A DNA stretch of 41,757 nt from Acaryochloris sp. IP29b_bin.148. GTDB lineage: Bacteria > Cyanobacteriota > Cyanobacteriia > Thermosynechococcales > Thermosynechococcaceae. The stretch spans positions 1 to 41,757 of the forward strand of contig NZ_JANQOY010000153.1 in the NCBI RefSeq assembly GCF_028285565.1, read 5' to 3'. Positions 1 through 19,085 of this stretch are shown in pieces; the first letter of the stretch is position 1, and each line of letters opens with the position of its first letter. Below the pieces are notes generated by a model, which did not search any database, had not been told where the DNA came from, and saw only the letters and a program-made list of their open reading frames with translations. Made by a program: the position numbers and the translations under genes.

Positions 1-84
1 ATTGCCTATTCGTATCACCCGATGAAGCCTGCTCTGGATCTGACGCCTGAGGAGCTAAAGGCCCTCCCTGCCGCGATTGTTTAG
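1..84 (+). CDS. C-terminal tail of a protein cut by the window edge
   Basis: Frame 1 is open from the first base to a TAG stop at 82-84 and gives 27 residues ending in LDLTPEELKALPAAIV. It has the helix-cap look (LTPEEL) of a real C-terminus. The start lies outside the window and the family cannot be recognised. It could also be a chance open frame. Confidence 0.4.
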   Translation: MAYSYHPMKPALDLTPEELKALPAAIV

Positions 85-102
85 CGTCGAACTCACGTAG
101 AT

Positions 103-246
103 ATAGTATTCCAGGTACTCCTACTTCGAGTACGCGACAAACTTAACTACCGAGATATGGCCGAGTACTTCTTGCTCCGAGGCTTTGTTTTCACTCATAA
201 AACAGTGCGGGATTGGTAAGAAAGATTTCTGCCTCTACCTGCAGTG
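103..246 (+). pseudogene. IS6-family-like transposase remnant
   Basis: Frame 1 from about 103 reads LLLRVRDKLNYRDMAEYF, then LLRGFVFTHKTVRDW, a stop TAA (217-219), then ERFLPLPAV. This matches the N-terminal helix-turn-helix stretch of IS6/IS240-type transposases, which typically read like YRDLAEMMLERG-x-x-V-x-H-x-T-I-x-x-W. No start codon, no DDE catalytic domain and one internal stop are seen, so it is a dead fragment. The family call rests on this short motif only. Confidence 0.6.
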
Positions 247-347
247 ATACCAATTACCCAACTAAATGACCTGTATAGATCGCCAAATGCATTGAAATTT
301 GGTCAATCATTTGGGGCAAACAGTTCATCTCCATACGAAATTGGTAT
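247..347. repeat. Small inverted-repeat element, possible MITE
   Basis: ATACCAATT (247-255) is repeated inverted as AATTGGTAT (339-347), giving an element of about 101 bp. A second perfect inverted repeat, CCAAAT (283-288) and ATTTGG (297-302), lies inside it. The nested palindromes directly after a transposase fragment suggest a non-autonomous element or a repetitive extragenic palindrome. Whether further genomic copies exist cannot be seen here. The rest of 348-450 shows nothing clear. Confidence 0.4.
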
Positions 348-450
348 GAGAATTATCCTGTCTAGGTCGTTAACTATCCTTCGACCTGTCCCCAAATAAC
401 TAATGCATTAGTATTAGTATGGTGAAAATCCTCCCTCACACTGCTGACCA

Positions 451-1755
451 ATGGCAGTCAAAACTAAAACTGGCATCACTCTTACTACCCATCAGCAAGC
501 CGCCCTGGAACAGCTCCATGATTTTTTGGACAGTCCAGAAAGACTGTTTGTCTTAGAAGGCTATGCAGGCACAGGTAAAACCACCCTGTTACAAGCCTTT
601 GTTTCCCAGTTACAAGATCGGGGCGACCGACGTGCCATCGTCTTTAGCGCCTTTACCAACAAAGCCACCAAAGTCCTCAACCAAATGGTGTCCTCCTGGG
701 GACTGAGCATAGAATGCCTCACCTGCTGTCAACTTCTGGGGCTGCGTCCACAGATCGATCCAGAGACAGGAGAGCAGGACTTTGTGCCTGAACACAATGA
801 GGAAAGCTCCTTTGGCAAATTTGCCCTTGTAGTGGTGGATGAATGTTCAATGGTCAACCGCAACCTTTGGGAGCTATTGCAAACCGAGCTGTCTGCCTTT
901 CACCTCACCACCCAGCTCTTGTTTGTGGGCGATGTGGCTCAGCTTCCCCCCATTAATGAACCCGCCTCCCCCACCTTTCTGGAGATTTCCAATAAGGCTC
1001 AACTGACCGAAGTAGTGCGTTATGGCAGCTCGATTGGGGTATTAGCAGAATCCGTCCGTTGTCATTTAGACATCCATCAGCTGCCCACCTTCCATACCGA
1101 TCTCAACGACGATAAAACCGAAGGCACCGTCGTCCTCCGACAGACAGACTGGACGAAACAGCTCCTGCGGGCCTTTACCAGCGAAAAAGGCCAGGACGAT
1201 TCCGACTATGTCCGGGCCTTGGCCTATACCAACCGACGCGTTGCCCATCTTAACCAACAAATTCGCAATGCCATTTTTGGTGCGGATGCCTATCGGTTTG
1301 TCCCTGGTGAACGCCTGATCGCCATGAGTCCCGTCTTTCGGCGTAAGGATGAAATTCTGATGCCCACCTCCTCTGAATGTTGGGTAGAAGATGCCGAAGA
1401 AGATGACTCCTCTGGTTGGCGGGTGTGGCGACTATTTGTGGTCACTGATGCCAACTTCGAAGCAGAAGTTACGGTTTTACATGAGTCTGAGCAACAGCGG
1501 TTTCAACAAGAACTCAGACGTCTAGCAGAAGGCAAACAATGGCAGGATTTTTGGCTGCTTAAACAGCAGCGATTTGCCAACTTAAACTACAGCTACGCCT
1601 TAACGGTGCATAAGTCCCAAGGATCTACCTTTCAGAATGTGTTCGTCGATCTGCCCAATCTGATGCGAAACCGCAATATCAGAGAGCGCAACCAGCTGCT
1701 TTATGTTGCGGTGACCCGTGCGGCCAAGCGGCTGTTTATCTGCCAAGCGCGCTAA
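451..1755 (+). CDS. RecD/Dda-like superfamily 1 DNA helicase
   Basis: This 434-residue protein is an ATP-dependent SF1 helicase of the RecD/Dda type. Walker A is at residues 37-45 (GYAGTGKTT). Walker B is near 127-132 (VVVDEC). Motif III follows as GDVAQLPP near 160. The C-terminal UvrD_C_2-like part carries ALTVHKSQGSTF and LLYVAVTRA, which correspond to motifs V and VI. It is a stand-alone protein without RecB or RecC partners nearby, so a role in DNA repair or recombination, or as a phage-type helicase, is inferred. The ATG at 451 begins shortly before the conserved THQQAALEQL segment. It does not obviously form an operon with its neighbours. The helicase family is certain; the exact role is not. 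Confidence 0.88.
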   Translation: MAVKTKTGITLTTHQQAALEQLHDFLDSPERLFVLEGYAGTGKTTLLQAFVSQLQDRGDRRAIVFSAFTNKATKVLNQMVSSWGLSIECLTCCQLLGLRPQIDPETGEQDFVPEHNEESSFGKFALVVVDECSMVNRNLWELLQTELSAFHLTTQLLFVGDVAQLPPINEPASPTFLEISNKAQLTEVVRYGSSIGVLAESVRCHLDIHQLPTFHTDLNDDKTEGTVVLRQTDWTKQLLRAFTSEKGQDDSDYVRALAYTNRRVAHLNQQIRNAIFGADAYRFVPGERLIAMSPVFRRKDEILMPTSSECWVEDAEEDDSSGWRVWRLFVVTDANFEAEVTVLHESEQQRFQQELRRLAEGKQWQDFWLLKQQRFANLNYSYALTVHKSQGSTFQNVFVDLPNLMRNRNIRERNQLLYVAVTRAAKRLFICQAR

Positions 1756-2688: not shown

Positions 2689-5600
2689 TTAACTCGCATG
2701 AGTATGATTGATGGCCTTGTTGATACAGGCTTGCATACCTTCTGCAAGCATAGGTGATTTTACGAGATCGGCGTGATAGCCTGGCACTGAATAAATCTCT
2801 ACCCCATCCTGAGCAATGCTACCCCAACCCATCTGAGGATCAACATAAAAACCAGGAAGTTGTTCATGGGCTTTGAAGATCGTAATAGTACCAGGGTAAG
2901 GTTTACATTCGTAATCTATCCAAGCCTTGTAGTGGGAAGCTTTCAGCTTCTCGGCAACCTCTGAAAAAGAACCGCCTCGTCCCAATACTTCAACTTCTGG
3001 CGCAGCATAAGCTAATTGAGAGCGCCTTAACACCCATAAATGAAAATGATGGACCCAGCCTTCCAGCTTATTCATTTCGCGGGGAAGCACTTTGATGGAA
3101 TTACTAATATCCTCTTCAAAGGGGAGATTCACCACTTCTTCACTCGCTTGCTCAGAGCTTTTTTTCTTAAGAAGCTTTTGGAATTCTTGGATGGCATCAC
3201 GTACTAAGGCTGTTGGCCCAACCTGCATTCGTTTATTGATAAATCGGGGGAGGGTATAGTTCAGTACGTACTTCAGGACAGAAAAGAATCTAGGAATGGG
3301 GTCAAGCACTTTACCCTCATTATCAGGGCCAGAAGTGTCAAACATCGCGACCAGTGCAACTTTATGACCCTGGGCATGGAGTTGTTGAGCCATTTCTAAA
3401 GCAATCACGCCACCAGATGAGACCCCTGATAGAAAATAAGGACCTTCAGGCTGAACAGTTTGGAGATGCCGAATATAGTCTGCAGCCATCTCCTCATAAC
3501 TGCCATGAAGAACGGTGGATCCATCTAACCCCTGGGCTTGAATGCCATACACAGGATAATCTGATCCTAGATGCTTTGCTAAGTCATGGTAAATCAACAC
3601 ATTAAAGCCTCCACCATGAATGCAAAACAAAGGAGGCTTAGTCCCGTTTGTATGAATAGGTACTAAAGAAGACCAAATTGTAGAATCTTCATCTTGACAA
3701 ATCGTATGGGCAAGTTGTTCTATCGTTGGATTTTGCAAAAGAGAAGAGAGAGGCAAACTTACACTTAACTTCTGCTCTATTTCCTGAAATAGACTCACAG
3801 CTAGGAGTGAATTCCCACCTAAATCGAAAAAATTATCATGAATACCAATCTCTTTTATTCGAAGCACATTACACCAGATTTTAGCTAGCTGTTGCTCCGT
3901 TTCACTACGAGGAGCTACAAAAGTTTCTTCTTGCTCAACACGCGAAAAATCAGGTGCGGGTAAAGAGCGTCGATCTACTTTGCCATTCGGCGTAAGGGGT
4001 AATACCTCAAGCATGACAAAAGCAGAAGGAACCATGTAAATAGGTAATCGTTCCTTGAGGTAACGACGTATATCCTTCGTGCTCAATTGTTTTGGGTCAG
4101 CAGCGAGATAAGCCACTAGGCGCTTGTCACCAGGCTGATCCTCATGAGCTAAAATTACTGCTTCTCTTATATCTGGATGTTGCTCCAACGCTGATTCAAT
4201 TTCCCCAAGTTCAATCCGAAACCCTCGGATTTTTATTTGGTCATCTCCACGACCGAGGAACATGATATTTCCATCGGGTCGATAGTAAACTAGGTCCCCT
4301 GTTTTATACAGCTTTGCCTCCGAGTCATGACTGAAGGGATGAGGGATAAATTTCTCATCTGATAGCGCTGGGCGATTGAGATACCCGCGTGCAACGCCTG
4401 CCCCTCCAATATGGAGTTCTCCTGGAACACCGATGGGAACGGGTTGTAACTGCTGATCCAGAACATAAATCTGAACATTATCAATGGGACGACCGATAGG
4501 AATTTCGGTCATACGACTATCGCTCTCTAGCTCAATACCTGGCTCATAGGCTGTAGCCGTTACAGAGGTTTCAGTGGGGCCATAGGTGTTCAACCAACGA
4601 CAGCGATCTCCAACCCGTTTTACCCATGTTTGGTAGATAGCTCTTGAAGCTTTTTCCCCTCCAACAACCACTAGGCGAACGGTTTGAGGTAGATCAAGTT
4701 GTAACTGTTGCATCCCATTCACTAACTCATGCCAAAAGGCTGTTGGAAAGTTAAGGATGGTGATCTGTTCTTGGAGAACAAACTTTAAGAACTCTGGGAT
4801 AGACGATAAAATCTCTTCTGGACGCAAAATAATCGTTGCACCCCTTAGCCAGGTGGGAAAGAGCTCCTCAACAGCAATATCGAAGCTAATAGATGCAAAT
4901 TGAAGAACGCGGTCATTTTCCGTTAGTCCAAATTGCTTAGCCATTGCCAAGTTATGATTCACTAACCCCTTATGAGGAATCATGACTCCTTTTGGTTTTC
5001 CTGTAGAACCAGAAGTATAAATAATATAGGCAAGATTTTCCGATGATACGGTGTGAGAGAGTGGTGAGATACTTTGCTCCGAAATTAAAGGCCAATCTTC
5101 GTCAAGGCAAATAACTTGAGCATTATGAGAAGGTAAAGTCTCCAGGAGATGTTTTTGCGTGAGGATAATAGGGGCTTGAGAATCCTCGATCATAAATGCT
5201 AGACGTTCACTAGGATATTTGGGGTCTAAAGGTAAATAAGCACCTCCAGCCTTAAAAATACCTAAAAACCCTATGGCCATCTCTAAAGAGCGCTCAACAC
5301 AAATACCAACGATTTGATCAGTATCAATGCCGCGATGTCGGAGATAATGCGCCAGTTGGTTGGCTCTACTATTCAGTTCTTGATAGGTTAACTGCCGATC
5401 TCGATGAATAACAGCAATTGCATCGGGGGTTTGCAGTGCCTGGCGCTCGAACAGCTGATGATAGCATTCCTGTTGAGCATCAGCTGTTTGAGTTTGGTTC
5501 CACTCTACTAAAAGCTTATCTTTTTGCTGTTGGGGCAAGAGAGATAGATTCGCAATATTCTCGCAAGGATCAGCAATAATACCCGTTAGCAAAGTCTGAA

Positions 5601-6975
5601 AATTCTCTGACAGTCGAGTGATTGTAGAATGAACAAACAAGTCTGTTTTATAGTTAAAAACAGAAATCAATTCATCCTCAGTTTCAAAAATCTCTAAATC
5701 TAAGTCGAATTGGCCTACTTGTTGTTCGATATGAAAAGACTCTAGTTTAAGTCCAGCCCATTCAATCTGGGTGATCTTATCATTCGGAATAAGCAGTGAA
5801 GTGACTTCCCCAATGTTTTGAGGTTTTAAATAATTAAACAGTACTTGGAAAATAGGTGAACTACTCAGATCCCGATCAGGGCGTAACCGTTCAACTAAAA
5901 ATGGGAAGGGACAATCTTGATGATCTAACGAATTCAGGACGTTCGTGCGAACATTAGCTAGAAAATCCGTAAACCTAGGATTATTGCCAAGGAATCCACG
6001 TATAACGATAGGATTAACAAAGTCTCCAACCGTTTTTGAAAACTCGATCTGATTTCGCCCTAATGTTGGTGTTCCAATCAAGATGTCTTCTTGACCTGTA
6101 TAACGGTATAGAAGAACCTGGAAAGCCGCAACAAGTAGTGTATAGAGCGTTACCCCTTCACTCTGTGCTAACTCTTTGAGTTTTGAAGTTAGTTCTTTAT
6201 TGATTTTAAATAGATGTGATGATCCTTCATAGGTCAGTAAAGTAGGGCGTGGATAGTCCGTTGGCAGATTTAAGATGGGCAAGTTGCCAGCGAGTTGTTG
6301 TTGCCAATACTGCCAAAGTTCCTCTCCTTCAGGCCCTGACAACATGTTACTTTGCCAACCTGCATAATCACTGTATTGCTGGCTCAGCTCAGGTAGTGTC
6401 GAAGGTGTATTGTTAACTTCGGCAAGATAAAAAGCTTTTAATTCATTCAGGATCAGCCAGTGAGACCATCCATCATAAGCAATATGGTGAATTGTAACTA
6501 AAAGAATATGGTCTTGTGCTGAACTCGAAAATAGATTAACGCGAATAACTGGCCCGTTCTTCAAATCAAAAGGCTGGCGGTAAGATTCAATTACCTGCTG
6601 ATTTAATTGATCAAAGGTCCAGCTAGAGCTATCGATTTTCTCAAAGCTAACTTGCTGTTTTTTATGGACAATCTGAATGGCTTCACCATTCTCGGTCGCA
6701 TAAGTTGTTCGTAAAATGGCATGACGATCGATCAGACACTGAAATGCTCGTTCTAACGCAAAAGTATCCACATCAGAGCAAATGCGAGCAGAAAAAGCGA
6801 GATTATAAGCTGCGCTTGAAGTATCACTTTGGTATAAATACCAAAGTGATTTTTGATTGTAAGATAATGGGTAAGTTTGATTCTCTTGGTTGACTTTGTC
6901 CCGAAGCAGTTTGGCTAATAGTGCGCGTTTTTCTGCAGTCGAAAGGCTCGCTTTTGATTCAGACAGATGAGTCAT
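2689..6975 (-). CDS. Nonribosomal peptide synthetase, C-A-PCP-TE
   Basis: A terminal NRPS module of 1428 residues. The condensation domain (about 35-480) has the active motif HHIAYDG at 163-169. The adenylation domain (about 510-1010) shows YTSGSTGKPKG (653-663), NTYGPTET (796-803), YKTGDL (890-895) and NGKVDRRSLP (997-1006). The carrier protein phosphopantetheine serine is S1056 in DLGGNSLL. The thioesterase (about 1110-1428) has GVSSG with nucleophile S1186. By hand alignment to GrsA the specificity positions 235/236/239/278/299/301/322/330/331 read D-I-E-N-V-V-T-V-T; I cannot assign a substrate. The N-terminus (AEKRALLAKLL) looks like a docking helix. It follows the PKS gene by 26 bp and is last in the operon, so it should add one amino acid and release the chain. 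Confidence 0.95.
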   Translation of the reverse strand: MTHLSESKASLSTAEKRALLAKLLRDKVNQENQTYPLSYNQKSLWYLYQSDTSSAAYNLAFSARICSDVDTFALERAFQCLIDRHAILRTTYATENGEAIQIVHKKQQVSFEKIDSSSWTFDQLNQQVIESYRQPFDLKNGPVIRVNLFSSSAQDHILLVTIHHIAYDGWSHWLILNELKAFYLAEVNNTPSTLPELSQQYSDYAGWQSNMLSGPEGEELWQYWQQQLAGNLPILNLPTDYPRPTLLTYEGSSHLFKINKELTSKLKELAQSEGVTLYTLLVAAFQVLLYRYTGQEDILIGTPTLGRNQIEFSKTVGDFVNPIVIRGFLGNNPRFTDFLANVRTNVLNSLDHQDCPFPFLVERLRPDRDLSSSPIFQVLFNYLKPQNIGEVTSLLIPNDKITQIEWAGLKLESFHIEQQVGQFDLDLEIFETEDELISVFNYKTDLFVHSTITRLSENFQTLLTGIIADPCENIANLSLLPQQQKDKLLVEWNQTQTADAQQECYHQLFERQALQTPDAIAVIHRDRQLTYQELNSRANQLAHYLRHRGIDTDQIVGICVERSLEMAIGFLGIFKAGGAYLPLDPKYPSERLAFMIEDSQAPIILTQKHLLETLPSHNAQVICLDEDWPLISEQSISPLSHTVSSENLAYIIYTSGSTGKPKGVMIPHKGLVNHNLAMAKQFGLTENDRVLQFASISFDIAVEELFPTWLRGATIILRPEEILSSIPEFLKFVLQEQITILNFPTAFWHELVNGMQQLQLDLPQTVRLVVVGGEKASRAIYQTWVKRVGDRCRWLNTYGPTETSVTATAYEPGIELESDSRMTEIPIGRPIDNVQIYVLDQQLQPVPIGVPGELHIGGAGVARGYLNRPALSDEKFIPHPFSHDSEAKLYKTGDLVYYRPDGNIMFLGRGDDQIKIRGFRIELGEIESALEQHPDIREAVILAHEDQPGDKRLVAYLAADPKQLSTKDIRRYLKERLPIYMVPSAFVMLEVLPLTPNGKVDRRSLPAPDFSRVEQEETFVAPRSETEQQLAKIWCNVLRIKEIGIHDNFFDLGGNSLLAVSLFQEIEQKLSVSLPLSSLLQNPTIEQLAHTICQDEDSTIWSSLVPIHTNGTKPPLFCIHGGGFNVLIYHDLAKHLGSDYPVYGIQAQGLDGSTVLHGSYEEMAADYIRHLQTVQPEGPYFLSGVSSGGVIALEMAQQLHAQGHKVALVAMFDTSGPDNEGKVLDPIPRFFSVLKYVLNYTLPRFINKRMQVGPTALVRDAIQEFQKLLKKKSSEQASEEVVNLPFEEDISNSIKVLPREMNKLEGWVHHFHLWVLRRSQLAYAAPEVEVLGRGGSFSEVAEKLKASHYKAWIDYECKPYPGTITIFKAHEQLPGFYVDPQMGWGSIAQDGVEIYSVPGYHADLVKSPMLAEGMQACINKAINHTHAS

Positions 6976-7001: not shown

Positions 7002-10000
7002 CTACAAATGATTATCTTGAGAAAGCATAGAGTTAAGTAAAGAATCAACTTCATCATCTGCAAGTTGCTCTAGGTTCTCCAATGCTTGTTCTGCCTCAGA
7101 TTTATGGCTCGTCTGATTCTGGTGGTCAAGTTTATCTCTGGACTGATCTGGCTCAGATAGACTTTCTGCTGGAGCAGATACCTCTCGCAATTGCATTTCT
7201 GCCTGTGCTGTCAGACCATTAACCGTCAGTCCTTCCATAAATTGGACCATGGGTATATTGACCCCCATATTCCCTTTTAAGGTATTTCTTAATTGAATTG
7301 CCATCATTGAATCAAGGCCAAGATTTATCAATGATGATTCTTTATCTAGTTTGGAAGATTCAATCCCTAATAGTTTCGCAACTTCAGTGTGAATGTAGAT
7401 TCCTAGCATTCGAGGAAGCTCTGTAGGGGAAGCGGACATTACATCCTGAACTGAAAGTGTTTCTGCGTGCTCCTGCATATTTTGCTGGGTTAGCTCAGAA
7501 AGAAAACCAGGAATTTTGCCGCTAGAAAAGTGTTGTTGGATAAATTTGGGCCAATCTAAGGAGCAGAACCCCATCTGGCAAGTAGACGTCTGACTTAATA
7601 GATCTGCTAACGCTTGCACTCCAATGTCTGGAGGAATTGTGTTGAACCCTAGTTTGTCTAGAAGGTCTTGGTCATGAGACTTGAGTGCTGTTGCCATACC
7701 AACATCTGCCCAAGGTCCCCAGTTAATACTCAAACTCGGCAACTCCAGCCCCTGTCGATAATGAGCTAAAGCGTCTAAGAAAGTATTGGCCGCACCATAA
7801 CTTCCTTTGCCGACGGCCCCAAGTACCGAAGCAATTGAAGAAAAACACACAAAGAAATCTAAAGGTATATCTTTCGATAGGGTATGAAGTGCCCAAGCCC
7901 CTCTTACTTTGGGCGCTGTGACTTGGGTGAATCGTTCCCAATCTTGCTGGAGTAATACTCCATCATCCTGAATCCCTGCAGTATGAACAATGCCTCGCAA
8001 AGCTGGCATAGATGTCTTCATCGTTGTGAAGACCTGAGCTAGCTCCGTTTCTTGCGTAACATCTGCTTGAATCACCTTCACTGTAGTTCCTAATTCTTCG
8101 AGAGCTGCAACACTTTCCTTTGCTTTGTCCGAAGGACCTTTTCGTCCAAGAAGCACTAAATGTCGGGCACCTTGATCAACCATCCAGCGGGCAACCTTAA
8201 GCCCTAAAGCCCCTAAACCACCTGTAATCAAATAAGTACTGTTGCCATCCAAGGGGCTAGTATTTTGCTCAGGCTGGTGATGGCGAACCAGTCGAGGCAC
8301 ATAACGCTGGCCATTTCGATGGGCCACATATTCCTCTTCATCTGGATGCAAAATCTCTGCTAATACAGCTTCAATTTCTGCTGTTGCCACGTTCTGTGAT
8401 GGGGGGGATGAGTCTGAGGACACATCAAATATGCCCCCCCAGATTTCTGGATGCTCTAAAGCAATGGTTTTGCACAGTCCCCACACAGGGGCTTGTGCAA
8501 CAGCTATTTGCTGATTACCTACGACGGGCACCGCATTCTGGGTCATCAGCCAAAGCTTAGGTGTTGCTTTACTATTCTGTTGGTTAAGGGCTTGAACCAA
8601 ATGCAGTATGCTGCCACAACTGTGGGATTGAGCTTGATCCAAGGCAGCACTATCTAGAACCTCATTTGTGGCAGCATCAATACTCCACAAATGAATAATG
8701 CCTTGTAGTGGTTTTCCGTGGTGCGTTCTAGCAACTTCTTGCAGTAGCTGCCCAAAATGGGTAGGTCGAGTGGGATTAATCCCCCATGTATTTTGATCGA
8801 TACTTTGATAAGTATCTGTAGGAACGACAAAAATACACTGTTGTCCGAAGCTATCTAAACGACTGGCTAAAGCGGAACTGATGCCACCCTGGTCAGAAAA
8901 AATAAGCCAACTCCCTGGTGACTGTTGGTGAGTCGTGGACTTAGGTAACTGAAGTTGGCGTGGCTTGGGTTGCCACTGGACCTGATAGAACCAATCTTGC
9001 GTTGAGGGGGACTGTTGATGCTGTGCAGCTAGTACTTCTAGCACTTTGGGCAATAAGGTCATTTCCTCAGTCGAGAATTGACCGGCTTGGGCTAATAACC
9101 GTGTCAATTGCTCAGAAAATTTCTCTGCTTGGGTGAGGGGTTGGTCCGTAGTTTGTATTTCCCCTACATCCAATAACTTGGATATCAAAGCCTGGACATT
9201 ACTTTCTGAAAGTGAAGCGGATTGAGAGGTGGGTTCAACCCAGTGTCTTTGTTGGTCGAAGGGATAGGTGGGGAGGGGGATACGATATCGTTTTTCCTCG
9301 CGGTAAAAGCTAGACCAGTCAACGTCAACTCCTGCTAACCAAAGTTCTCCTAAGGTCTTAAGCTGAAACGCCACATCTGACATTTCTTCCTTCGGATGAC
9401 GAACAGAAGACAGAATAAATCGTCCTGCAGCATCAGGTTGCTGCTTGGCTAAAGACTTTAATGTTTGTCCTGGACCAACTTCTAATAAGATTCGATCTGG
9501 ATCTTGGAGTAATTCTTGAACCCCTCCAGAAAACCGCACCGCTTGTCGTAGATGTTGAGCCCAATAGGACGGATCGGTTGCCTCTGCTGCTGAAATCCAT
9601 GTTCCCGTCACATTGGAAATATAGGGAATCTGGGGGGGATTTAAGGCAACTTTACCCACCTGCGCAGTAAACCCATCTAGGATAGGATCCATCATCTGGG
9701 AGTGGAATGCATGGGAGGTATGGAGGCGTCGGCAATCGATTTCCTGTTGGTGTAATCTTTGCTCTAAGGCATCAATGGCTTCGTTGGGACCGGACACTGC
9801 AGAAATGGATGGCGCGTTGTTAGCAGCCAAGGACAGTTCAGACGTTAGTAGAGAACGAACCTCTTGCTCAGGCAGAAATACTGCTAGAAGTGACCCTGAT
9901 GGCAAAGCTTGCATCATTTTGCCTCTAGCCGCCACCAAGGCTAAGGCATCTTCTAGAGTAAAGACACCGGCAATACAAGCGGCTACGTATTCACCAATAC

Positions 10001-11894
10001 TATGTCCAATCATCGCCTGAGGTTGAATTCCCCAAGCCATCCATAACTGTGCCAAGGCATATTCAATGACAAAGAGAGCGGGTTGAGTGATCCCCGTCTG
10101 TTTTAACTGGGCAGTTGCGGCATCGATTTGAGAGGGAGCTGGATAAAGAAGTTGGCGAAGATCTAGATCCAGAAGCGGTTTTAGAATCTCGGCACACTGA
10201 TCGACTTGCGAACGAAAGATGGACTCAGTTTGGTAAAGCTGCTGAGCCATGTTGACGTACTGTGCCCCTTGCCCAGAAAACATAAAGACAATAGGACGAT
10301 GCTTAGGGGGTTTTGAGGAGGTACTGCCCCATTGTGGATTGAGTGTGTCCAGCGATTCGATCGCCTGGGAAGCAGTCTCAACCACCAGCATTCGTCGGTG
10401 GGTAAAGGCTTGCCGCCCAACCTGCAGGGTAAATGCGGTATCTGCCAGATTAATATCAGGATTTTGCTGAAAATGGAGGGCTAAATTTTGGGTTGCCGCA
10501 TTCAGGGCAGTTTTAGTTTTGGCAGATAAAACGAGGAGTTGCCAAGGTCTGAGAGAGGGCTGGGAGGGCGATAATGTGGGTGCTTCTTCTAGAACTGCAT
10601 GAGCATTGGTACCACCAATCCCAAAGGAGCTGACACCTGCACGTCTTGGACTTCCTTCTACTTGCCAGTCTTGAAGTTGGGTATTGACATAAAACGGGCT
10701 TTGGCCAAAGTTGATTTGAGGATTGGATTGCTCGAAATGCAGACTTGGGGGAATCTGCTGATGCTTTAGAGCTAAAGTCGTTTTAATCAGGCCGATAATA
10801 CCTGCAGCGCGGTTGAGGTGACCAATATTACCTTTAACGGACCCGATGGCACAAAACTCTGTTTTGTCGGTTTGAGCTTGAAAAACTTGGTTAAGAGCAG
10901 CCACTTCAATGGGATCTCCCATTCCTGTCGCTGTTCCATGAGCCTCAATATAGGAAACGGTTTCTGGTTCGATATCTGCGATCGCATAAGCTTCTGCAAT
11001 TGCTTCTGCCTGGCCATCAACACTGGGAGCAGTGTACCCCACCTTAAGAGAGCCATCATTATTGATCGCTGAACCTTTGATCACAGCATAAATGTGATCC
11101 TGATCCGCCAAGGCATCCTCTAAGCGTTTTAAGACAACAATTCCCAGACCACTACCGAAGATCGTTCCTTGGGCTTTGGCATCAAAAGGGCGACAATGTC
11201 CGTCTGGAGATGCAATTCCATCTTCTTGATACCAATATCCTTGAGTTTGGGGGATCTGAATCGTAACGCCACCCGCCAAAGCCATATCACACTCTTCATC
11301 CAACAACCCTTGGCAAGCAATGTGTACAGCAACTAACGAAGATGAACAAGCCGTATTAATACAAACGCTTGGCCCCTTCAAATTCATTTTGTATGAGATC
11401 CGAGTGGGGACAAAATCCTTGTCATTACCAATCTCGATCTGTAACTCGCCTGTGCGGTTGAGAAAGTCTTGATTTGGCAGCAGATTATGTCGTAGGTATG
11501 TACTCAGGCTAGACCCTGTATAGACGCCAACTCTACCGTCATAAGTCTCACTATTGTAGCCGGCATTTTCAAGCGCCCCCCAAGCACATTGCAGTAATAG
11601 TCGATGTTGAGGGTCCATCGACTGCGCTTCTCTCGGAGAAAAACCGAAGAAGGACGCATCAAATAGATCCACATCTGATAGAACCGATCCTGCTTTGATG
11701 TAATTCGGATGATTGAGTGTCTCTGGCGGAACTCCTGCGGCTGTGAGTTCTTCATCTGAGAAGAACGCAATGGATTCAGTACCATCACATAAATTTTGCC
11801 AAAATTTTTCGACTGTTGCAGCACCTGGGAAGCGGCCGTCTACACCGATAATAGCGATTCCCTCCATGGAGTCGTACTTTACCCCATCATCCAT
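7002..11894 (-). CDS. Type I polyketide synthase, KS-AT-KR-ACP
   Basis: One complete extension module of 1630 residues. The ketosynthase (about 10-440) has C183 in TACSSS, H319 in EAHGTATG and H359 in GNIGHL. The acyltransferase (about 530-830) has S632 in GHSIGE and HAFH at 728-731, the signature for malonyl-CoA. A structural KR half (about 970-1180) precedes the catalytic KR (about 1218-1400) with GGLGALG, S1353 and Y1366. The QDDG near 1309 matches the LDD motif of B-type reductases, which predicts a D-configured hydroxyl. The ACP serine is S1529 in LGLDSMM. The acidic tail (about 1600-1630) looks like a docking segment for the next enzyme. There is no DH or ER in this protein, but a DH opens the upstream gene product. 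The ATG at 11894 follows GGAGAGGG. Confidence 0.96.
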   Translation of the reverse strand: MDDGVKYDSMEGIAIIGVDGRFPGAATVEKFWQNLCDGTESIAFFSDEELTAAGVPPETLNHPNYIKAGSVLSDVDLFDASFFGFSPREAQSMDPQHRLLLQCAWGALENAGYNSETYDGRVGVYTGSSLSTYLRHNLLPNQDFLNRTGELQIEIGNDKDFVPTRISYKMNLKGPSVCINTACSSSLVAVHIACQGLLDEECDMALAGGVTIQIPQTQGYWYQEDGIASPDGHCRPFDAKAQGTIFGSGLGIVVLKRLEDALADQDHIYAVIKGSAINNDGSLKVGYTAPSVDGQAEAIAEAYAIADIEPETVSYIEAHGTATGMGDPIEVAALNQVFQAQTDKTEFCAIGSVKGNIGHLNRAAGIIGLIKTTLALKHQQIPPSLHFEQSNPQINFGQSPFYVNTQLQDWQVEGSPRRAGVSSFGIGGTNAHAVLEEAPTLSPSQPSLRPWQLLVLSAKTKTALNAATQNLALHFQQNPDINLADTAFTLQVGRQAFTHRRMLVVETASQAIESLDTLNPQWGSTSSKPPKHRPIVFMFSGQGAQYVNMAQQLYQTESIFRSQVDQCAEILKPLLDLDLRQLLYPAPSQIDAATAQLKQTGITQPALFVIEYALAQLWMAWGIQPQAMIGHSIGEYVAACIAGVFTLEDALALVAARGKMMQALPSGSLLAVFLPEQEVRSLLTSELSLAANNAPSISAVSGPNEAIDALEQRLHQQEIDCRRLHTSHAFHSQMMDPILDGFTAQVGKVALNPPQIPYISNVTGTWISAAEATDPSYWAQHLRQAVRFSGGVQELLQDPDRILLEVGPGQTLKSLAKQQPDAAGRFILSSVRHPKEEMSDVAFQLKTLGELWLAGVDVDWSSFYREEKRYRIPLPTYPFDQQRHWVEPTSQSASLSESNVQALISKLLDVGEIQTTDQPLTQAEKFSEQLTRLLAQAGQFSTEEMTLLPKVLEVLAAQHQQSPSTQDWFYQVQWQPKPRQLQLPKSTTHQQSPGSWLIFSDQGGISSALASRLDSFGQQCIFVVPTDTYQSIDQNTWGINPTRPTHFGQLLQEVARTHHGKPLQGIIHLWSIDAATNEVLDSAALDQAQSHSCGSILHLVQALNQQNSKATPKLWLMTQNAVPVVGNQQIAVAQAPVWGLCKTIALEHPEIWGGIFDVSSDSSPPSQNVATAEIEAVLAEILHPDEEEYVAHRNGQRYVPRLVRHHQPEQNTSPLDGNSTYLITGGLGALGLKVARWMVDQGARHLVLLGRKGPSDKAKESVAALEELGTTVKVIQADVTQETELAQVFTTMKTSMPALRGIVHTAGIQDDGVLLQQDWERFTQVTAPKVRGAWALHTLSKDIPLDFFVCFSSIASVLGAVGKGSYGAANTFLDALAHYRQGLELPSLSINWGPWADVGMATALKSHDQDLLDKLGFNTIPPDIGVQALADLLSQTSTCQMGFCSLDWPKFIQQHFSSGKIPGFLSELTQQNMQEHAETLSVQDVMSASPTELPRMLGIYIHTEVAKLLGIESSKLDKESSLINLGLDSMMAIQLRNTLKGNMGVNIPMVQFMEGLTVNGLTAQAEMQLREVSAPAESLSEPDQSRDKLDHQNQTSHKSEAEQALENLEQLADDEVDSLLNSMLSQDNHL

Positions 11895-12020: not shown

Positions 12021-15000
12021 TTAGCGTCGACGTGATTGTCTTTGCTGTTGTCGCCTATTGCGAGCCTCTCGCTTGCGTTGGGCTCGTTGATCAGCTGTTT
12101 GAGTCGGCAGATTCATGGACGGTTGCTCGCCTTGCCCTTCTCTTAATTGGTTGGCCAGAGCATGAATCGTTGGATATTTAAATAAATCGACCGGTGAAAT
12201 ATTGCTGGCAAATTTCTCTTGCAATTTAGTATGCACTTGCACCATCAGCAATGATCGTCCCCCTAATTCAAAGAAATTATCATGAACCCCCACTTGATCC
12301 AGACCTAAAACTTCAGACCAAATTTTGGCAAGTTCAGCTTCAAAGTCATTACTGGGGGGCACAAATGGCTCGTTCAGATCAGGCCGATCTCGGTGTCTTT
12401 GGGCTTCGACGACCTGAAGGATTTCTTCTGGGTTGTTGAATTGTGTTGCAATACGATGAATGGTGTTGGAATCAACCTGAGTCACTGTTGATGTCAGCAC
12501 CGATCGCTTAGGAGCTGAGGAGGAAGACGCCTCTTGTTCTGGCGCGCGTTCAGTCGGTGTAAAGGCCAGTTGTGCTGCGATCGCAGAATCAAAGGTAAAT
12601 TGCCAGTCATTGCCCACTGGGTGTTTAACCTCAGTCCCCACTCTATTGAGGAAATCCATAGCGGGTTGGTTTTTGGGCGTAGGTTTATAGAGGACTTCAA
12701 CAGAAGCTAAACCTCTCGATTGGGCAATCGCACCTAATTGAGCAAGCATTTGGTACTCAACCCCTCTGCCCAACGTACGGCAGCTCAACAAGAAGGTGTC
12801 GACCTGCAGTTTGGTTCCATCGGTGCTGAACAGGACAGCCCCGACCAGTCCATATTCACCAAACCGATCGCTCACCTGCACCGTTAGACACTCATATTGA
12901 TTGGAGGCCAGTAACTGCTGAATCTCCGTTTCAGAGCGTCGAATCGTCGTGAAATTGAACTGATTGGTTCGATGGGTCAGCTGAGAAACCCGAGACAGCT
13001 GTTGAGCCGTCATGGGTCCAATATCAACCTTCAACTCTAAACCAGCCAGAAAATCACTAAAGGTCAACGTTCCTTGGCGAAAGTGCTCTCGCTGCACTTC
13101 CTGCTGATAGAGAACGGTACGCTGCTGGTCCTCTTTTGTAGTCTGCAGATGGTCAAAGGCCCAAACATGTTTAAGGAAATGGGGAATGTCATCCGCATTA
13201 GTGGGAAGCTGTAACGTTAGTACCTGTGGGCAGTTTGTCTGTACTTCCGCACATTCAATAGGATTATCATCAATAAAAATAAAGCTATCCAGCCCCAGAT
13301 TCAGCTCAGCAGCCAACGCTTTAATATTGTCAGACTTAGACGACCAGTTCACTTTGGATTGAACCAGATGATCCCGTTTGAGAGGCATATCTGAACGAGC
13401 ATCAAAGACGGCCCAGACATCCGCTTCAGAATTCTTGCTACACAGGCATAGCAACATTCCTGCTTCCTGTTGAGCCACCATAAACGCTTGCAGAAATTGG
13501 TAAGACGGTGATATTTCGATGCCTTGTGCTCCATCTTCACCACAAACCCCTTGCCAAAGGGTGCCATCACAATCTAAGGCAATCACTTTATAGGAGGGAT
13601 GCTGAATGGCGTAAACCTTGCGGGCCAGGGCAGTACCTAAAGCGGCAAAGAATGCTGAAGTATAAGGAACATGACCAAACTGATGTCCATGCGGATCATA
13701 GTAAGAAGAGACTGGGTAGAGCGTACTCAGCATGGAACTGGTTAAGCTATAGATACCTTCTATCTGCTCAACTTCGCTAACTAGCTTTGTCTCCATCTGC
13801 TGATAAATAGAATGAACGGTTGGATCTGCGATCGCATCGGGTGAGTTAGGACAAATACAAACGATATGAGGCGTTGAAGATCGTCCTGCTGCGCTTCTAA
13901 GAGAATCACAGAGATCCTGGATATTTTTCTCGATTTTTCCAGTATTAACTTCATTCTTTACAGCTACTGGCGTTCTTCTGGCTTCAGGACGGATGGCATA
14001 AATATTATAGAGTCCAGAACTTTGGAGCATATCCTCTTCATCGATAATTAGCTCAAAGCCTTTGGTCCGTAATAGTGTTTTAACGGCCTCAATAATGCTG
14101 CCCTCTTGATCGTGGACCTCCACCACCATTTGTTGAATAATCGGCCAATGCTCCTCTTTGATCCCTTGCAAAACTGGCAACTCGCTTTTCTCTGCATCTA
14201 GCTTTAGGAGATCAATTTTCCCAATCTGATGTTCTTCAATAATGCTAGATAGGGTCCGCAACTGAGCCTGATACGTTTCTTTATTGAGCCGATCCTTTAA
14301 AAACTCATCCGCCAAAGCATCAATTTCGCTCTCGGTCATAGCCTGATCCCGCTGCAGCATATTGAGAATCACAGCGCGAATCGCTTGCTCATCCTCCAGG
14401 GAATCAGCAGCAAAGCTAGAAAACACCGAGGAATTGGGGTAGAAGGTAAAGGTCTCAACGCTATCGCTTCCTCCTAAACCACAATTAAACAGGTGCGTAT
14501 TTTGGCCGTATAGTGTTGCATTACACTGAAGCTTATCGAAGGCATGAGGCGCAGGTTCAAAAGCATACACAGTGCCGTTGGGACATTGTTGTTGGACAAA
14601 TAATGTAAATAGGCCAATATTCGCCCCAATATCCACAACACAGTCTCCATCTTGCAAGACTACGCCATGCTTTTGATAAACTTGATCGATGAAAATTTCT
14701 TTGTACAAATATTCCGTTTCATAGGGATTGAGATGGGCAACCTCAACTCGATTTGGCAACTGAAAATGAGCACGTTCAGCGAGATAACGCTCTTTTTCAG
14801 CAGGACTTACTTTTAGTTGTAGCGACGATTCCCCCTGATTCCAATCTTCTAAGCGCACTAATACAGCATTGACACCCTCGTGATTACTGGACAGTAAGCT
14901 AGAGGGATTCAACAACTCTTGAAATACTTGATTGTAAGGGGCAAATTGGATCTGGAAAGGCAGATCTAATTCTTGCATCCAAAAGGCCAAAGCATCCTCA

Positions 15001-15983
15001 ACAGGCTCAGCCGTGTAGGTCGAAGAAATGGCAAGCGTTTGTCTTTGGCGCAGACTCCCCAGCAAAGCCTCATGGTGGGCATGCTCAATCACAACCCCCT
15101 TGGCTTCGACTACAACAGTTCCCTGCGGATCGCATAGGTATAGATCAGCCGTCATCGTTTGTGGACGAGACTCTTGTGACGCATGGAGTTGAGCATAACT
15201 CCATAGAGAACCCGCTACCTCGGGAAAATCGCCAATCACATTCAGCTGCTCAATTCCTACCGGCAAATAAGTTTCCCCTTTAACTGCCTCGGGTAAAGCA
15301 GCCCAGAGTACTTGAAAGCAACTATCCAACAGCACAGGATGAACGATATAGTCCGACGCGTTCGCTAGCAAGTCAGCGGGGAGTTTAATCTGACCTAAAG
15401 CTTTGCCATCCCGTCGCCAAAGCTGCTCAACCACCTGAAAACAAGGACCATACATAATCCCTCGATCTTCACAGTCCTGGTAAAAAGCATCTACGGCGCT
15501 GATCTGCAGCGAAGACGTCAGTTCTACTACAGGAATATTATGACTAGAGTCTGAGGGTTGATGGAGAGCCACCAAGGAGCCAGATGAATGAAAAATGGGG
15601 GACGATTCTCCAGGCTGCCCACCCGTTACCTCACTCAAAATCTGAAAGGTAGAGCGATTGTCTTCACCAGATGTCAGGGTGAGCTGAACATCGTGCTGAG
15701 TGTTCTCTCGTAGAATTAAAGCCTGTTGGATACTAATGTTCTCAATCGTCCAGTTCTTGATCCCGAACTCAGTGTGTCCTAGCGCTAACACCATCTCCAC
15801 ATAAGCAGTTGCGGGTAAGATCGCAACATCATAAACACAATGATGTGCTAAAAAACCTGGCTTATTAACGCTAACTTGAGCCTTAAACTCTAGGGTTTGA
15901 GGGGGAGGAGACTGCTGTTTTTGGCCTAAAAGAGGATGAAAAAGTTTGCTAGTTGCATGGTCAGATTCTGAAGTGTAGCTCAT
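12021..15983 (-). CDS. DH - FkbH-like glyceryl loading domain with nested FkbM methyltransferase - ACP
   Basis: Multidomain protein of 1320 residues. A PKS dehydratase-type double hotdog (about 16-300) has H48-x3-D52-x4-P57 instead of the usual H-x3-G-x4-P, and D220-x3-Q224. The FkbH N-terminal region starts at about 330-385 (FAPYNQVFQELL, GVNAVLVRLEDW). An FkbM SAM methyltransferase follows at about 415-665 (VVDIGANIGLF at 449-459, AFEPAP, LLKLDAE). The FkbH part then resumes at about 685-1135 with the HAD motif ALDCDGTLW (D804, D806), IFIDDNP and a GNAT-like end. The ACP (about 1210-1280) has S1244, and a very basic tail follows. FkbH proteins load a glycerate unit from 1,3-bisphosphoglycerate onto an ACP, so this is the probable starter enzyme. 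GGGGAAG lies 5 nt before the ATG. It is the first gene of the assembly-line run. Confidence 0.93.
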   Translation of the reverse strand: MSYTSESDHATSKLFHPLLGQKQQSPPPQTLEFKAQVSVNKPGFLAHHCVYDVAILPATAYVEMVLALGHTEFGIKNWTIENISIQQALILRENTQHDVQLTLTSGEDNRSTFQILSEVTGGQPGESSPIFHSSGSLVALHQPSDSSHNIPVVELTSSLQISAVDAFYQDCEDRGIMYGPCFQVVEQLWRRDGKALGQIKLPADLLANASDYIVHPVLLDSCFQVLWAALPEAVKGETYLPVGIEQLNVIGDFPEVAGSLWSYAQLHASQESRPQTMTADLYLCDPQGTVVVEAKGVVIEHAHHEALLGSLRQRQTLAISSTYTAEPVEDALAFWMQELDLPFQIQFAPYNQVFQELLNPSSLLSSNHEGVNAVLVRLEDWNQGESSLQLKVSPAEKERYLAERAHFQLPNRVEVAHLNPYETEYLYKEIFIDQVYQKHGVVLQDGDCVVDIGANIGLFTLFVQQQCPNGTVYAFEPAPHAFDKLQCNATLYGQNTHLFNCGLGGSDSVETFTFYPNSSVFSSFAADSLEDEQAIRAVILNMLQRDQAMTESEIDALADEFLKDRLNKETYQAQLRTLSSIIEEHQIGKIDLLKLDAEKSELPVLQGIKEEHWPIIQQMVVEVHDQEGSIIEAVKTLLRTKGFELIIDEEDMLQSSGLYNIYAIRPEARRTPVAVKNEVNTGKIEKNIQDLCDSLRSAAGRSSTPHIVCICPNSPDAIADPTVHSIYQQMETKLVSEVEQIEGIYSLTSSMLSTLYPVSSYYDPHGHQFGHVPYTSAFFAALGTALARKVYAIQHPSYKVIALDCDGTLWQGVCGEDGAQGIEISPSYQFLQAFMVAQQEAGMLLCLCSKNSEADVWAVFDARSDMPLKRDHLVQSKVNWSSKSDNIKALAAELNLGLDSFIFIDDNPIECAEVQTNCPQVLTLQLPTNADDIPHFLKHVWAFDHLQTTKEDQQRTVLYQQEVQREHFRQGTLTFSDFLAGLELKVDIGPMTAQQLSRVSQLTHRTNQFNFTTIRRSETEIQQLLASNQYECLTVQVSDRFGEYGLVGAVLFSTDGTKLQVDTFLLSCRTLGRGVEYQMLAQLGAIAQSRGLASVEVLYKPTPKNQPAMDFLNRVGTEVKHPVGNDWQFTFDSAIAAQLAFTPTERAPEQEASSSSAPKRSVLTSTVTQVDSNTIHRIATQFNNPEEILQVVEAQRHRDRPDLNEPFVPPSNDFEAELAKIWSEVLGLDQVGVHDNFFELGGRSLLMVQVHTKLQEKFASNISPVDLFKYPTIHALANQLREGQGEQPSMNLPTQTADQRAQRKREARNRRQQQRQSRRR

Positions 15984-16718: not shown

Positions 16719-17885
16719 CTATGATTCAAGTTGATTACCCGTCATTTGAATCAGTTGCTCATAGAACTTGGGCCAGTAAGCCTCAAAGGAAGCTTTGGTC
16801 TGACAAAAGTTCAGGCATCGCTCTCGATACTCCGACTGCTTACCCATTAGTGTATGGATTGCTGACGGAATCTCAGAGCCCCCCTCTATTAAAATACCCA
16901 AATTTTCTTTTTCTATAAAGCTAAAAGAGGAGAGTTGAGATGCAATAACTGGAGAGCCACAGGCCAGACTACGCATCAGTTTGCCAGAGGAGAAACCCAC
17001 ATATTCAATATGTGGGCCAGAATTATGATAAAGTGCAAAGCTCCCTTCACAATAGGCGACCAGTGAATTCAATTCATCTTGGGACAAAACCTGATCACTC
17101 CAATAAATCCGGTGATTTTCCAGATGAGAATATCTTTGTCGGAAAGCGTCAACTTCCCCCTTAGAGCGGCTATGGACAATAAGTACTGCAGGTTCAGGCC
17201 AGTCAGCCACAGACGAAAGAATCTCTGGCACACGAGCCCATGTATCGACAGTGCCTGCATAAAGAAATGGAATAGAATCCTTAGGAAGCTTGAATCTGAG
17301 ATGCCAATCAATATCGTGAGCACAAGGCTGAATAGCAGCTATGTTGGGAAGCGTTGCATAAGGCGTCGTTTGAGACAGGCCTAGTTCTTCAGAAATTAAT
17401 GGGTATTGCTGAGGATCAGGCACTACAATCATGGCTGCCTTTTGGGCAGCTTCTTGTTCTAAAGTGGTCCACATGGTCTGTGGCCAATTGCTGGGAAACT
17501 CATCAACCACCTGGATCAACGGACATTCATTCGCTTTAGCCAGCACGTTGCCAATGAATGCACCTTTTTGCCCCAAACCCAATACACAATGATAGTCTTT
17601 CCTTTGCTTAAATCGAGATCTTAACCAGCGCTCCAAATAGCGTCCAGTCAGGCCAAATCGCGATTCAGTAAAGAATTGGATAGAGACGTTTTGAGGCAGT
17701 AAATCTCTATAGTCTGCAATAGGTCTTCCCCATAAAGGTTTTTCCCAAAGGTATAAATCAACGGCCCAACCCATTTTGGCTAAAGACATAACCGTATTCA
17801 GGGCAAATGGCATCGTTTCAAGCCGTGCATTTTTAGGCCCATGAGGATAGTGAATAAAAGCAAGTTTCCCAAGCATTGGTCCCAT
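16719..17885 (-). CDS. Glycosyltransferase, GT4-like GT-B fold
   Basis: A 388-residue protein with two Rossmann-like halves. The N-terminus (KLAFIHYPHGPKNARLETMP, then MSLAKMGWAVDLY) resembles the acceptor half of GT-B enzymes. The C-terminal half contains PFLYAGTVDTWARVP and a donor-site stretch EYVGFSSGKLMRSLACGSPV near 300-325, the position of the sugar-nucleotide loop and E-x7-E region in GT4 enzymes. No transmembrane segment is evident, so it is probably cytoplasmic or peripheral. It lies 84 bp downstream of the aminotransferase gene on the same strand and 735 bp upstream of the PKS genes, so attachment of a sugar to the product is inferred. An alternative ATG lies three codons in. An exopolysaccharide role cannot be excluded. 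Confidence 0.78.
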   Translation of the reverse strand: MGPMLGKLAFIHYPHGPKNARLETMPFALNTVMSLAKMGWAVDLYLWEKPLWGRPIADYRDLLPQNVSIQFFTESRFGLTGRYLERWLRSRFKQRKDYHCVLGLGQKGAFIGNVLAKANECPLIQVVDEFPSNWPQTMWTTLEQEAAQKAAMIVVPDPQQYPLISEELGLSQTTPYATLPNIAAIQPCAHDIDWHLRFKLPKDSIPFLYAGTVDTWARVPEILSSVADWPEPAVLIVHSRSKGEVDAFRQRYSHLENHRIYWSDQVLSQDELNSLVAYCEGSFALYHNSGPHIEYVGFSSGKLMRSLACGSPVIASQLSSFSFIEKENLGILIEGGSEIPSAIHTLMGKQSEYRERCLNFCQTKASFEAYWPKFYEQLIQMTGNQLES

Positions 17886-17969: not shown

Positions 17970-19085
17970 CTATCGCATAACGTCTTGCAAAGCATGAGCG
18001 ACTTGTTGCATCTGTAGGTCAGTTAATGCGAGTCCGCTGGGAATATAGAAACCACGGCGGGCAATCTTTTCTGAGATGGGACAGGACACCTGATCGAATA
18101 GTCCCATCTCTTGGAAGACAGGTTGAAGATGCATCGGCCAGAAGAAGGGTCTCGTCCCAATTTCATGAGCTGCTAGACGTTTCATCGCTTCCTGGGCATC
18201 AAAGGGAACATTGTCCTCTAAAACAATGCCATAGACCCAATATATATTGGTTGCATAATCAGTTTTAGGGACAGGTAGCTGAAGTCCAGGAATCTCTGCC
18301 AATAGGCGATTATAGACTTCCCCCATATGGCGTTTGCGAGCGATAAACGTATCTATTTGTTCTAGTTGTGCCAATCCCAACGCAGCTTGCATATTGGTCA
18401 TCCGATAATTCCACCCTAACTCCAGGTGAACAAATCGTTTCTGCGGTTGGAAGCATAAATTTCTCAGAGATCTAGAACGATCAGCCAATGTCTCATCATT
18501 GGTCAGTACCATTCCACCTTCCCCTGTGGTGAGGTGTTTATTGGGATAAAAGCTAAATGTACTAATCGCACCGAAACTACCACAAGGGGCTCCATTATAA
18601 GTCTGGCCATGCATTTCAGCGGCATCTTCAATAATATATAGCCCATATTTATTCGCTAATTCCATCAGTGGTTGCATATCCACAGGTAATCCATAAATAT
18701 GAACAACCATGATGGCCTTTGTGTTGTCGGTAATCTTGGCTTCAATTTGGCTGACATCCATATTCCAAGTTGCAGGGCAGCAGTCTACAACTACGGGTGT
18801 CGCACCTGCCCGCACAATCGCAGCGGCACAGGAAATGATGGTGAATGAGGGAAGTATCACTTCATCCCCATGACCGATTTTGAGCGCAGCAAGGGCAACG
18901 TCTATGGCAACAGAACCGTTGCAAACAGCAATGCCATGCTTCCTCCCCATTTGCTCAGCAAATTGCTGTTCAAATTGTTTAACGAAAGGACCTTCTGAAG
19001 AAATCCACTTAGTATCGATACACTCATTTAGATACTTTTTCTCATTGCCATTGAGAAGAGGTTCATTAACTGGAACAAACGCCAT
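17970..19085 (-). CDS. DegT/DnrJ/EryC1-family PLP aminotransferase (perosamine-synthase-like)
   Basis: This 371-residue fold-type I PLP enzyme belongs to the family that transaminates nucleotide-linked keto sugars. K183 in FYPNKHLTTGEGGM is the expected Schiff-base lysine. EDAAEMHG (153-160) carries the aspartate that contacts the pyridine nitrogen. The N-terminus FVPVNEPLLNGNEKKYL and the WNYRMTNMQAALGLAQLEQ stretch are typical of perosamine or DesI-like enzymes. Its ATG overlaps the TGA of the cupin gene by one base, so the two are translationally coupled. No NDP-sugar dehydratase lies in the window, so the sugar precursor would come from elsewhere. The family is certain; the exact sugar is unknown. 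Confidence 0.92.
   Translation of the reverse strand: MAFVPVNEPLLNGNEKKYLNECIDTKWISSEGPFVKQFEQQFAEQMGRKHGIAVCNGSVAIDVALAALKIGHGDEVILPSFTIISCAAAIVRAGATPVVVDCCPATWNMDVSQIEAKITDNTKAIMVVHIYGLPVDMQPLMELANKYGLYIIEDAAEMHGQTYNGAPCGSFGAISTFSFYPNKHLTTGEGGMVLTNDETLADRSRSLRNLCFQPQKRFVHLELGWNYRMTNMQAALGLAQLEQIDTFIARKRHMGEVYNRLLAEIPGLQLPVPKTDYATNIYWVYGIVLEDNVPFDAQEAMKRLAAHEIGTRPFFWPMHLQPVFQEMGLFDQVSCPISEKIARRGFYIPSGLALTDLQMQQVAHALQDVMR

Follow-up and report, generated by a model that had tools for sequence, protein, structure and literature searches.

The question raised by this locus is whether the methyltransferase of a putative loading protein stands beside the FkbH loading unit or inside it. The window, a stretch of 41,757 nucleotides of Acaryochloris sp. 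IP29b_bin.148 (contig NZ_JANQOY010000153.1), carries an open reading frame (ORF) at 12021-15983 (-), which is open throughout and has a product of 1320 amino acids (aa). A preliminary description had claimed that an FkbM methyltransferase interrupts the FkbH unit of this protein. Comparison with uninterrupted relatives and a two-piece match to a hidden Markov model (HMM) bear this out: the FkbM methyltransferase is nested inside the FkbH unit of the 1320-aa protein.

Pfam and curated profile domains alone, read in order, give DH-FkbM-FkbH-ACP, and the nesting, which such profiles miss by themselves, becomes visible once the protein is set against its relatives. The protein begins with a polyketide synthase (PKS) dehydratase (DH; 15075-15938 (-), residues 16-303, PF21089/PF14765). 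It is followed by the first part of the FkbH N-terminal domain (14811-15041 (-), residues ~315-391, FAPYNQVFQELL ... VLVRLEDW, placed by homology and a model compared with the solved structure 3slr), the inserted FkbM unit (13944-14810 (-), residues ~392-680) and the second part of the same N-terminal domain (13596-13943 (-), residues ~681-796, placed by homology and the model). The FkbH catalytic domain then comes with its HAD part and its GNAT-like part (12627-13595 (-), residues 797-1119, TIGR01686 and fold matches), and a carrier protein (ACP/PCP) with the motif FFELGGRSLL stands at 12150-12335 (-) (residues 1217-1278, PF00550). The FkbM unit scored 96 bits with TIGR01444 (residues 449-624, cut-off 37.7) and 70 bits with PF05050 (451-644, cut-off 22.7), and its S-adenosylmethionine (SAM) motif is VVDIGANIGLF at residue 449. 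The catalytic FkbH domain scored 308 bits against a cut-off of 146.65; the HAD motif DxDxT is present as DCDGTLW at 804, with the carrier protein in the same module. There was no AMP-binding match in the Pfam scan of the protein, which is not an interrupted adenylation domain.

Eight relatives in named genomes were compared with the window protein. FkbM is absent from seven of them, where a short junction connects both flanks within a single open frame, and the eighth (L007, Symploca sp. SIO2E6) is interrupted as in the window. In alignments to the seven, the match of the first flank starts at window residue 313-322 and ends at 381-391 (421 in L003), and the match of the second flank resumes at 673-684. 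Window residues 313-391 are 45-67% identical to uninterrupted FkbHs, in which this stretch is joined directly to the remainder. An HMM of 524 positions built from the seven proteins matches the window protein over two collinear stretches, HMM 2-84 and 79-524; the N-terminal domain and the HAD part, which are continuous in megasynthase FkbHs, are here separated by an insert of about 277 aa. FkbHs without the insert that had not been used to build this HMM (e.g. L066, L069, L072, L075) match it as a single piece. Sixteen further proteins are split alike near HMM 71-84, and the SAM motif is kept in 17 of the 17 full nested copies, the window's included. Since the same split recurs at the same position in so many proteins, chance and assembly error are ruled out as its origin.

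A rival view is that FkbM merely adjoins FkbH, residues 315-391 being a part of the DH or of FkbM and FkbH being complete after residue 680. TIGR01686 is indeed complete by itself at 797-1119, and there are stand-alone FkbHs of about 357 aa without the N-terminal domain. We nevertheless consider this view very improbable: the first flank matches directly joined FkbHs, and homology, the two-piece HMM match and a model whose alignment with 3slr begins at its first residue together rule out an FkbH complete after 680. The preliminary description had put FkbM at about 415-665 and the rest of the FkbH region from about 685 on. Its nesting held in the HMM and pairwise alignments, where uninterrupted FkbHs join both flanks directly, and its limits had to be redrawn to about 314-391, 392-680 and 681-796; it is the front domain that is split, while the curated catalytic domain (797-1119) is unbroken.

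Structure prediction, which had been suggested as a check, agrees with the nesting less firmly than homology does. In a modest model both flanks appear to match BF1531 (PDB 3slr), which was also the best Foldseek match of the model (E 4.7e-16). In the VIA alignment, model positions 1..638 account for 337 of the 376 residues of the 3slr chain, and a profile made from uninterrupted FkbHs runs along 3slr 55-371 without a break. Several values weigh against this agreement. The model has a mean pLDDT of 66 and a pTM of 0.38, with the first half of FkbM mostly below 50; the VIA row for 3slr has a root-mean-square deviation (rmsd) of 8.5 Å and was made after leaving out low-confidence stretches, and the Foldseek row has a TM of 0.42 (by target) and an rmsd of 16.7. 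No methyltransferase chain was among the 50 VIA rows listed, which are 3slr, HAD and GNAT-bearing chains, and the poor model of the FkbM part may be the reason. Solved structures searched by the FkbM sequence gave no match at E 0.01.

The same nesting is seen again in Symploca, in a congener and in the family of G042, where 15 of 217 genomes have it. In a sample of 386 genomes across the phylum, 4 carry the nested unit, the window's among them. Within the window's order it is in 2 of 29 genomes, the second being the congener (G566), whose locus (L122) ends at a contig edge and holds the DH, the first FkbH flank and the beginning of FkbM. A TIGR01686 search of the 386 genomes at E 1e-40 matched 42 of them, and 30 listed loci among these were examined; with the unit in only 4 of the 42, nesting is a minority state among FkbH-bearing genomes.

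A decayed remnant of 385 aa lies in genome G352 (L097:8620-9774, the same place as L034), with the FkbH front half and part of the second flank; its FkbM is mostly gone and it has no catalytic FkbH domain. NRPS (nonribosomal peptide synthetase) clusters on actinomycete plasmids (L123:10924-15873, L124:4936-9843, L125:11056-15858, L126:10855-15858) encode a protein with FkbM, about 70 aa further on an FkbH HAD-GNAT part, then a carrier and a C domain. By hhalign, the stretches around FkbM in these four proteins are only weakly similar to the split domain, with E values of 0.011 and 0.009 at a probability of about 4%, against 0.18 and 0.53 for mismatched controls. A Burkholderia ubonensis plasmid ORF (L127:7647-9884) has an FkbM of 43% identity between stretches resembling the split front domain; the part after FkbM overlaps an annotated isochorismatase gene, the ORF has no HAD match, and the flank similarity is not significant.

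The insert and its host seem to have different histories. In a tree of 48 rows, the 17 rows of FkbH-nested FkbMs group as a single clade (support 100/100). The tree was made without second loci of the same genome, the remnant L034/L097, the stop-bearing L061 and matches of fewer than 200 query positions. The sister group (93/87) consists of the C-terminal FkbMs of PKS proteins from five loci, and FkbMs nested in adenylation domains, between the A core and the A-C part, adjoin the FkbH-nested clade; these come from ten cyanobacterial loci and form one clade (L014-L016, L053, L056, L057, L059, L060, L062, L063). For the FkbHs that host the 17 inserts, the approximately unbiased (AU) test rejects a single clade (p 6.7e-6, 17 vs 9 rows; run without the seven long or distant rows L006, L008, L070, L074, L076, L082 and L090), which rules out a single insertion followed by vertical descent. 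The host tree of 33 rows has three changes between the interrupted and uninterrupted state, and the uninterrupted L072, L075, L066 and L069 fall between or among interrupted FkbHs. Since the inserts form one clade and the hosts do not, the insert is, judging by these trees, an element that has been lost from FkbHs or has moved between them. Excision scars were sought in L066 and L069, with few shared residues found, and these resemble L072 as well. Two loci, L116 and L117, have an FkbH of the same clade without FkbM. The first (L116:8495-14902) reads FkbH-ACP-sulfotransferase-C-A-PCP with a sulfotransferase (ST) 80% identical to that of L094, and is a predicted unmethylated sulfoglycerate loader; L117 has no sulfotransferase.

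What would the nested enzyme do? The role of FkbH in glycerate loading from 1,3-bisphosphoglycerate is accepted (PMC8949500, PMC13122637; all papers are cited here for excerpts of their text). We propose that an FkbM O-methyltransferase was inserted into a loop of the BF1531-like N-terminal domain of such a loader, just after the strand VLVRLEDW. FkbH would take glycerate from 1,3-bisphosphoglycerate, remove the phosphate and place the glyceryl unit on the C-terminal carrier protein, and the FkbM beside it would methylate the C2 hydroxyl of glycerate on the carrier (or on FkbH). The 2-O-methylglyceryl unit would then pass to a PKS module, KS-AT-KR-ACP (7002-11894 (-)), probably the first extension, and to an NRPS module, C-A-PCP-TE (2689-6975 (-)), probably the last step and release, both read from Pfam and sequence.

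The likely kin of the nested loci among published systems fit such a role. The first unit of suomilides and varlaxins is 2-O-methylglyceric acid 3-O-sulfate (Mgs), and for the first module of suomilide, varlaxin and dysinosin FkbH, a methyltransferase (MT/OMT), PCP and ST are named (PMC10143770, PMC13122637, PMC6520454, PMC10157211). In SuoB, glycerate is loaded by FkbH and afterwards methylated and sulfonated (PMC8609519); dysinosin DysB has FkbH, methyltransferase and ST (PMC6520454). In the family of G042, the ten nested loci fetched as 20-kb stretches (of 15) all read FkbH(FkbM)-ACP-ST-C-A-PCP-C/E, the last C-type domain, only 22-23% alike and a weak match, being read as an epimerisation domain (E). 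In L103 this chain is spread over two ORFs and a further C-A gene is present; the neighbouring cupin, SDR, Rieske and prephenate-dehydratase-like genes (the last below the Pfam cut-off) are in line with aeruginosin-type clusters. Since the nested loci match the loading-module content of suomilide, varlaxin and dysinosin, FkbM most likely methylates the loaded glycerate at O-2, and we put the probability of this at about 80%. Substrate, position and order of steps are what we infer from the sequences; the earlier interpretation, methylation at the loading step giving a methoxylated glyceryl starter, gains support from them.

Some points weigh against this assignment. SuoB, AerB, BslA and DysB are equated with the nested loci by their domain content. 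The window protein has the complete first-module set of Mgs modules (FkbH, O-methyltransferase and carrier protein) and lacks their sulfotransferase: none was found after the carrier or elsewhere in the protein by the Pfam scan. The Planktothrix cyanopeptolin cluster has a GA domain, an ST and a methyltransferase, and the unit which this methyltransferase serves is not named in the excerpt (PMC2533009). FkbM might also act on an intermediate further along the line or on a different hydroxyl, such as one made by the KR, with its place in FkbH being merely structural; its relatives are found in A domains and at the ends of PKSs, and the family probably takes various carrier-bound hydroxyls. The nested clade, however, is common to PKS-free proteins that resemble the loaders of products methylated at glycerate O-2, and we regard such a role as improbable. 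Sulfotransferase matches in the window's genome number 14, all on other contigs; four sulfotransferase-like matches lie together on C141:12071-21185 and are not linked to the cluster in the assembly.

The dehydratase of the loading protein raises a further question. By alignment to the CurF/CurK DH structures, the window DH keeps His48 and Asp220, which we take to be the catalytic dyad. Fusion of a DH to FkbH(FkbM) is common to the window, Symploca and the congener, with the His and Asp kept in all three, and the dN/dS of the window DH against the congener is 0.17 by a purpose-written script (dS 1.47, near saturation). It changes faster than the adjoining domains, with 66% identity to the congener against 85% for the FkbH flank and 92% for FkbM. 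In Symploca L007 (contig 10.9 kb) the loader is directly followed by C-A-PCP-TE, and no PKS or KR gene was found on this short contig, beyond which other genes may lie. The carrier protein of the Symploca loader is 44% identical over 57 residues to the carrier of the window PKS, against 27% over 86 to the window loading carrier. By these sequences it looks as if a PKS module was gained or lost between the two forms.

The starter itself could be a substrate of the DH, since the loaded glyceryl unit is a beta-hydroxyacyl thioester. The DH would turn 2-O-methylglyceryl-ACP into 2-methoxyacryloyl-ACP (CH2=C(OMe)-CO-S), prior methylation preventing collapse to pyruvyl, and the starter would be a vinyl ether and not a methoxyglyceryl unit. 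The fusion in three genomes, the kept residues, the low dN/dS (read with its near-saturated dS) and the lack of another beta-hydroxyl source on the Symploca contig all favour this. In addition, phormidolide ends in a bromomethoxydiene, 4-bromo-3-methoxybut-3-en-2-one being named as its key fragment in a reference title (PMC8880653), and its cluster encodes FkbH, O-methyltransferase and DH domains (PMC7600079). The excerpts of these two papers do not assign the methoxydiene to FkbH; the link is our own, and the likeness makes DH action on the starter at most thinkable. The faster divergence of the DH, the primary 3-hydroxyl of the glyceryl unit, unlike usual DH substrates, and the shortness of the Symploca contig speak against it, so that we see it as possible and on the unlikely side. 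Alternatively, the DH could act on the beta-hydroxyacyl chain from the downstream KR and FkbM on glycerate only, with an enoyl chain and a methoxyglyceryl end as the product. The window PKS has no DH of its own, and a separate DH would be the missing part; against this, the DH belongs to the upstream loading protein and has been retained in Symploca, where no KR module is visible. This is a tentative reading with a real chance of being right, and an idle DH is possible too. A wider proposal, that DH-FkbH(FkbM)-ACP is a self-contained 2-methoxyacryloyl starter factory whose FkbM cassette is portable among, or excised from, FkbH and A domains and so sets starter methylation, seems doubtful to us.

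Upstream of the loading gene, the membership of the cluster is uncertain. The 388-aa protein directly upstream (16719-17885 (-)) had no Pfam match and a weak glycosyltransferase-like NF007326 match (E 7e-4, far below cut-off), and a DegT/DnrJ-type aminotransferase (17970-19085 (-), PF01041) lies further upstream. The patterns of a viral-contig scan gave no match.

Among the titles and abstracts listed in a literature search, none reported an FkbH interrupted by a methyltransferase, nor is one named in the excerpts of PMC10157211, PMC10143770, PMC13122637, PMC8609519, PMC6520454, PMC8949500, PMC11298585, PMC2533009, PMC2739229, PMC7600079 and PMC8880653. Loading modules with these enzymes, and the products of the likely kin, are known already. 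As far as these titles, abstracts and excerpts reach, the nesting, its site in the BF1531-like domain, the differing histories of insert and host and the DH-FkbH(FkbM)-ACP form are new. Tools that know only the HAD part of FkbH draw a methyltransferase and then an FkbH, and the nesting is overlooked. The pairs of interrupted and uninterrupted FkbHs offer a natural design rule for inserting or removing a methyltransferase, and they also predict which glycerate starters carry a methyl group. If the DH does act on the starter, glycerate could in this way be turned into vinyl-ether starters.

Compared with known systems, the nested loci share the line of FkbH, O-methyltransferase and carrier that opens SuoB (suomilide), BslA (banyaside/suomilide-like), AerB (varlaxin) and DysB, and one of them has aeruginosin-type neighbours. 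In the excerpts on those modules, however, the methyltransferase and FkbH are described as separate domains, and the modules have an ST and then NRPS directly; in the window, by contrast, a DH precedes the loader, there is no ST and a PKS module comes next. Planktothrix cyanopeptolin-1138 likewise begins with sulfated O-methylglycerate (HO3SO-CH2-CH(OMe)-CO-), and its synthetase has GA and sulfotransferase domains; the source of the O-methyl group is not stated in the excerpt (PMC2533009), and the cyanobacterial L116 has FkbH-ACP-ST without FkbM. BF1531 of Bacteroides fragilis has, by sequence profile and fold, the same N-terminal domain followed by a HAD-IIIC phosphatase domain, but no insert, no ACP and, in the solved piece, no GNAT-like part. 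Phormidolide, to judge from the excerpts, is of a cyanobacterial line with FkbH, O-methyltransferase, DH and a bromomethoxydiene end, and differs in being made by a trans-AT PKS (PMC7600079, PMC8880653). A parallel in manner of working is the interrupted adenylation domain, a well-known engineering idea (e.g. thiocoraline TioS; PMC8949500), where a methyltransferase sits in a loop of a unit-loading domain and loading is coupled with methylation; the FkbMs of the ten loci described above, which are near to the FkbH-nested ones, sit in A domains of this kind. The host in the window is instead the N-terminal domain of FkbH, a host not named in the excerpt of that paper, so the same trick is found in an unrelated loading enzyme. 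The nested FkbH would work like an interrupted adenylation domain and is not a member of that group.

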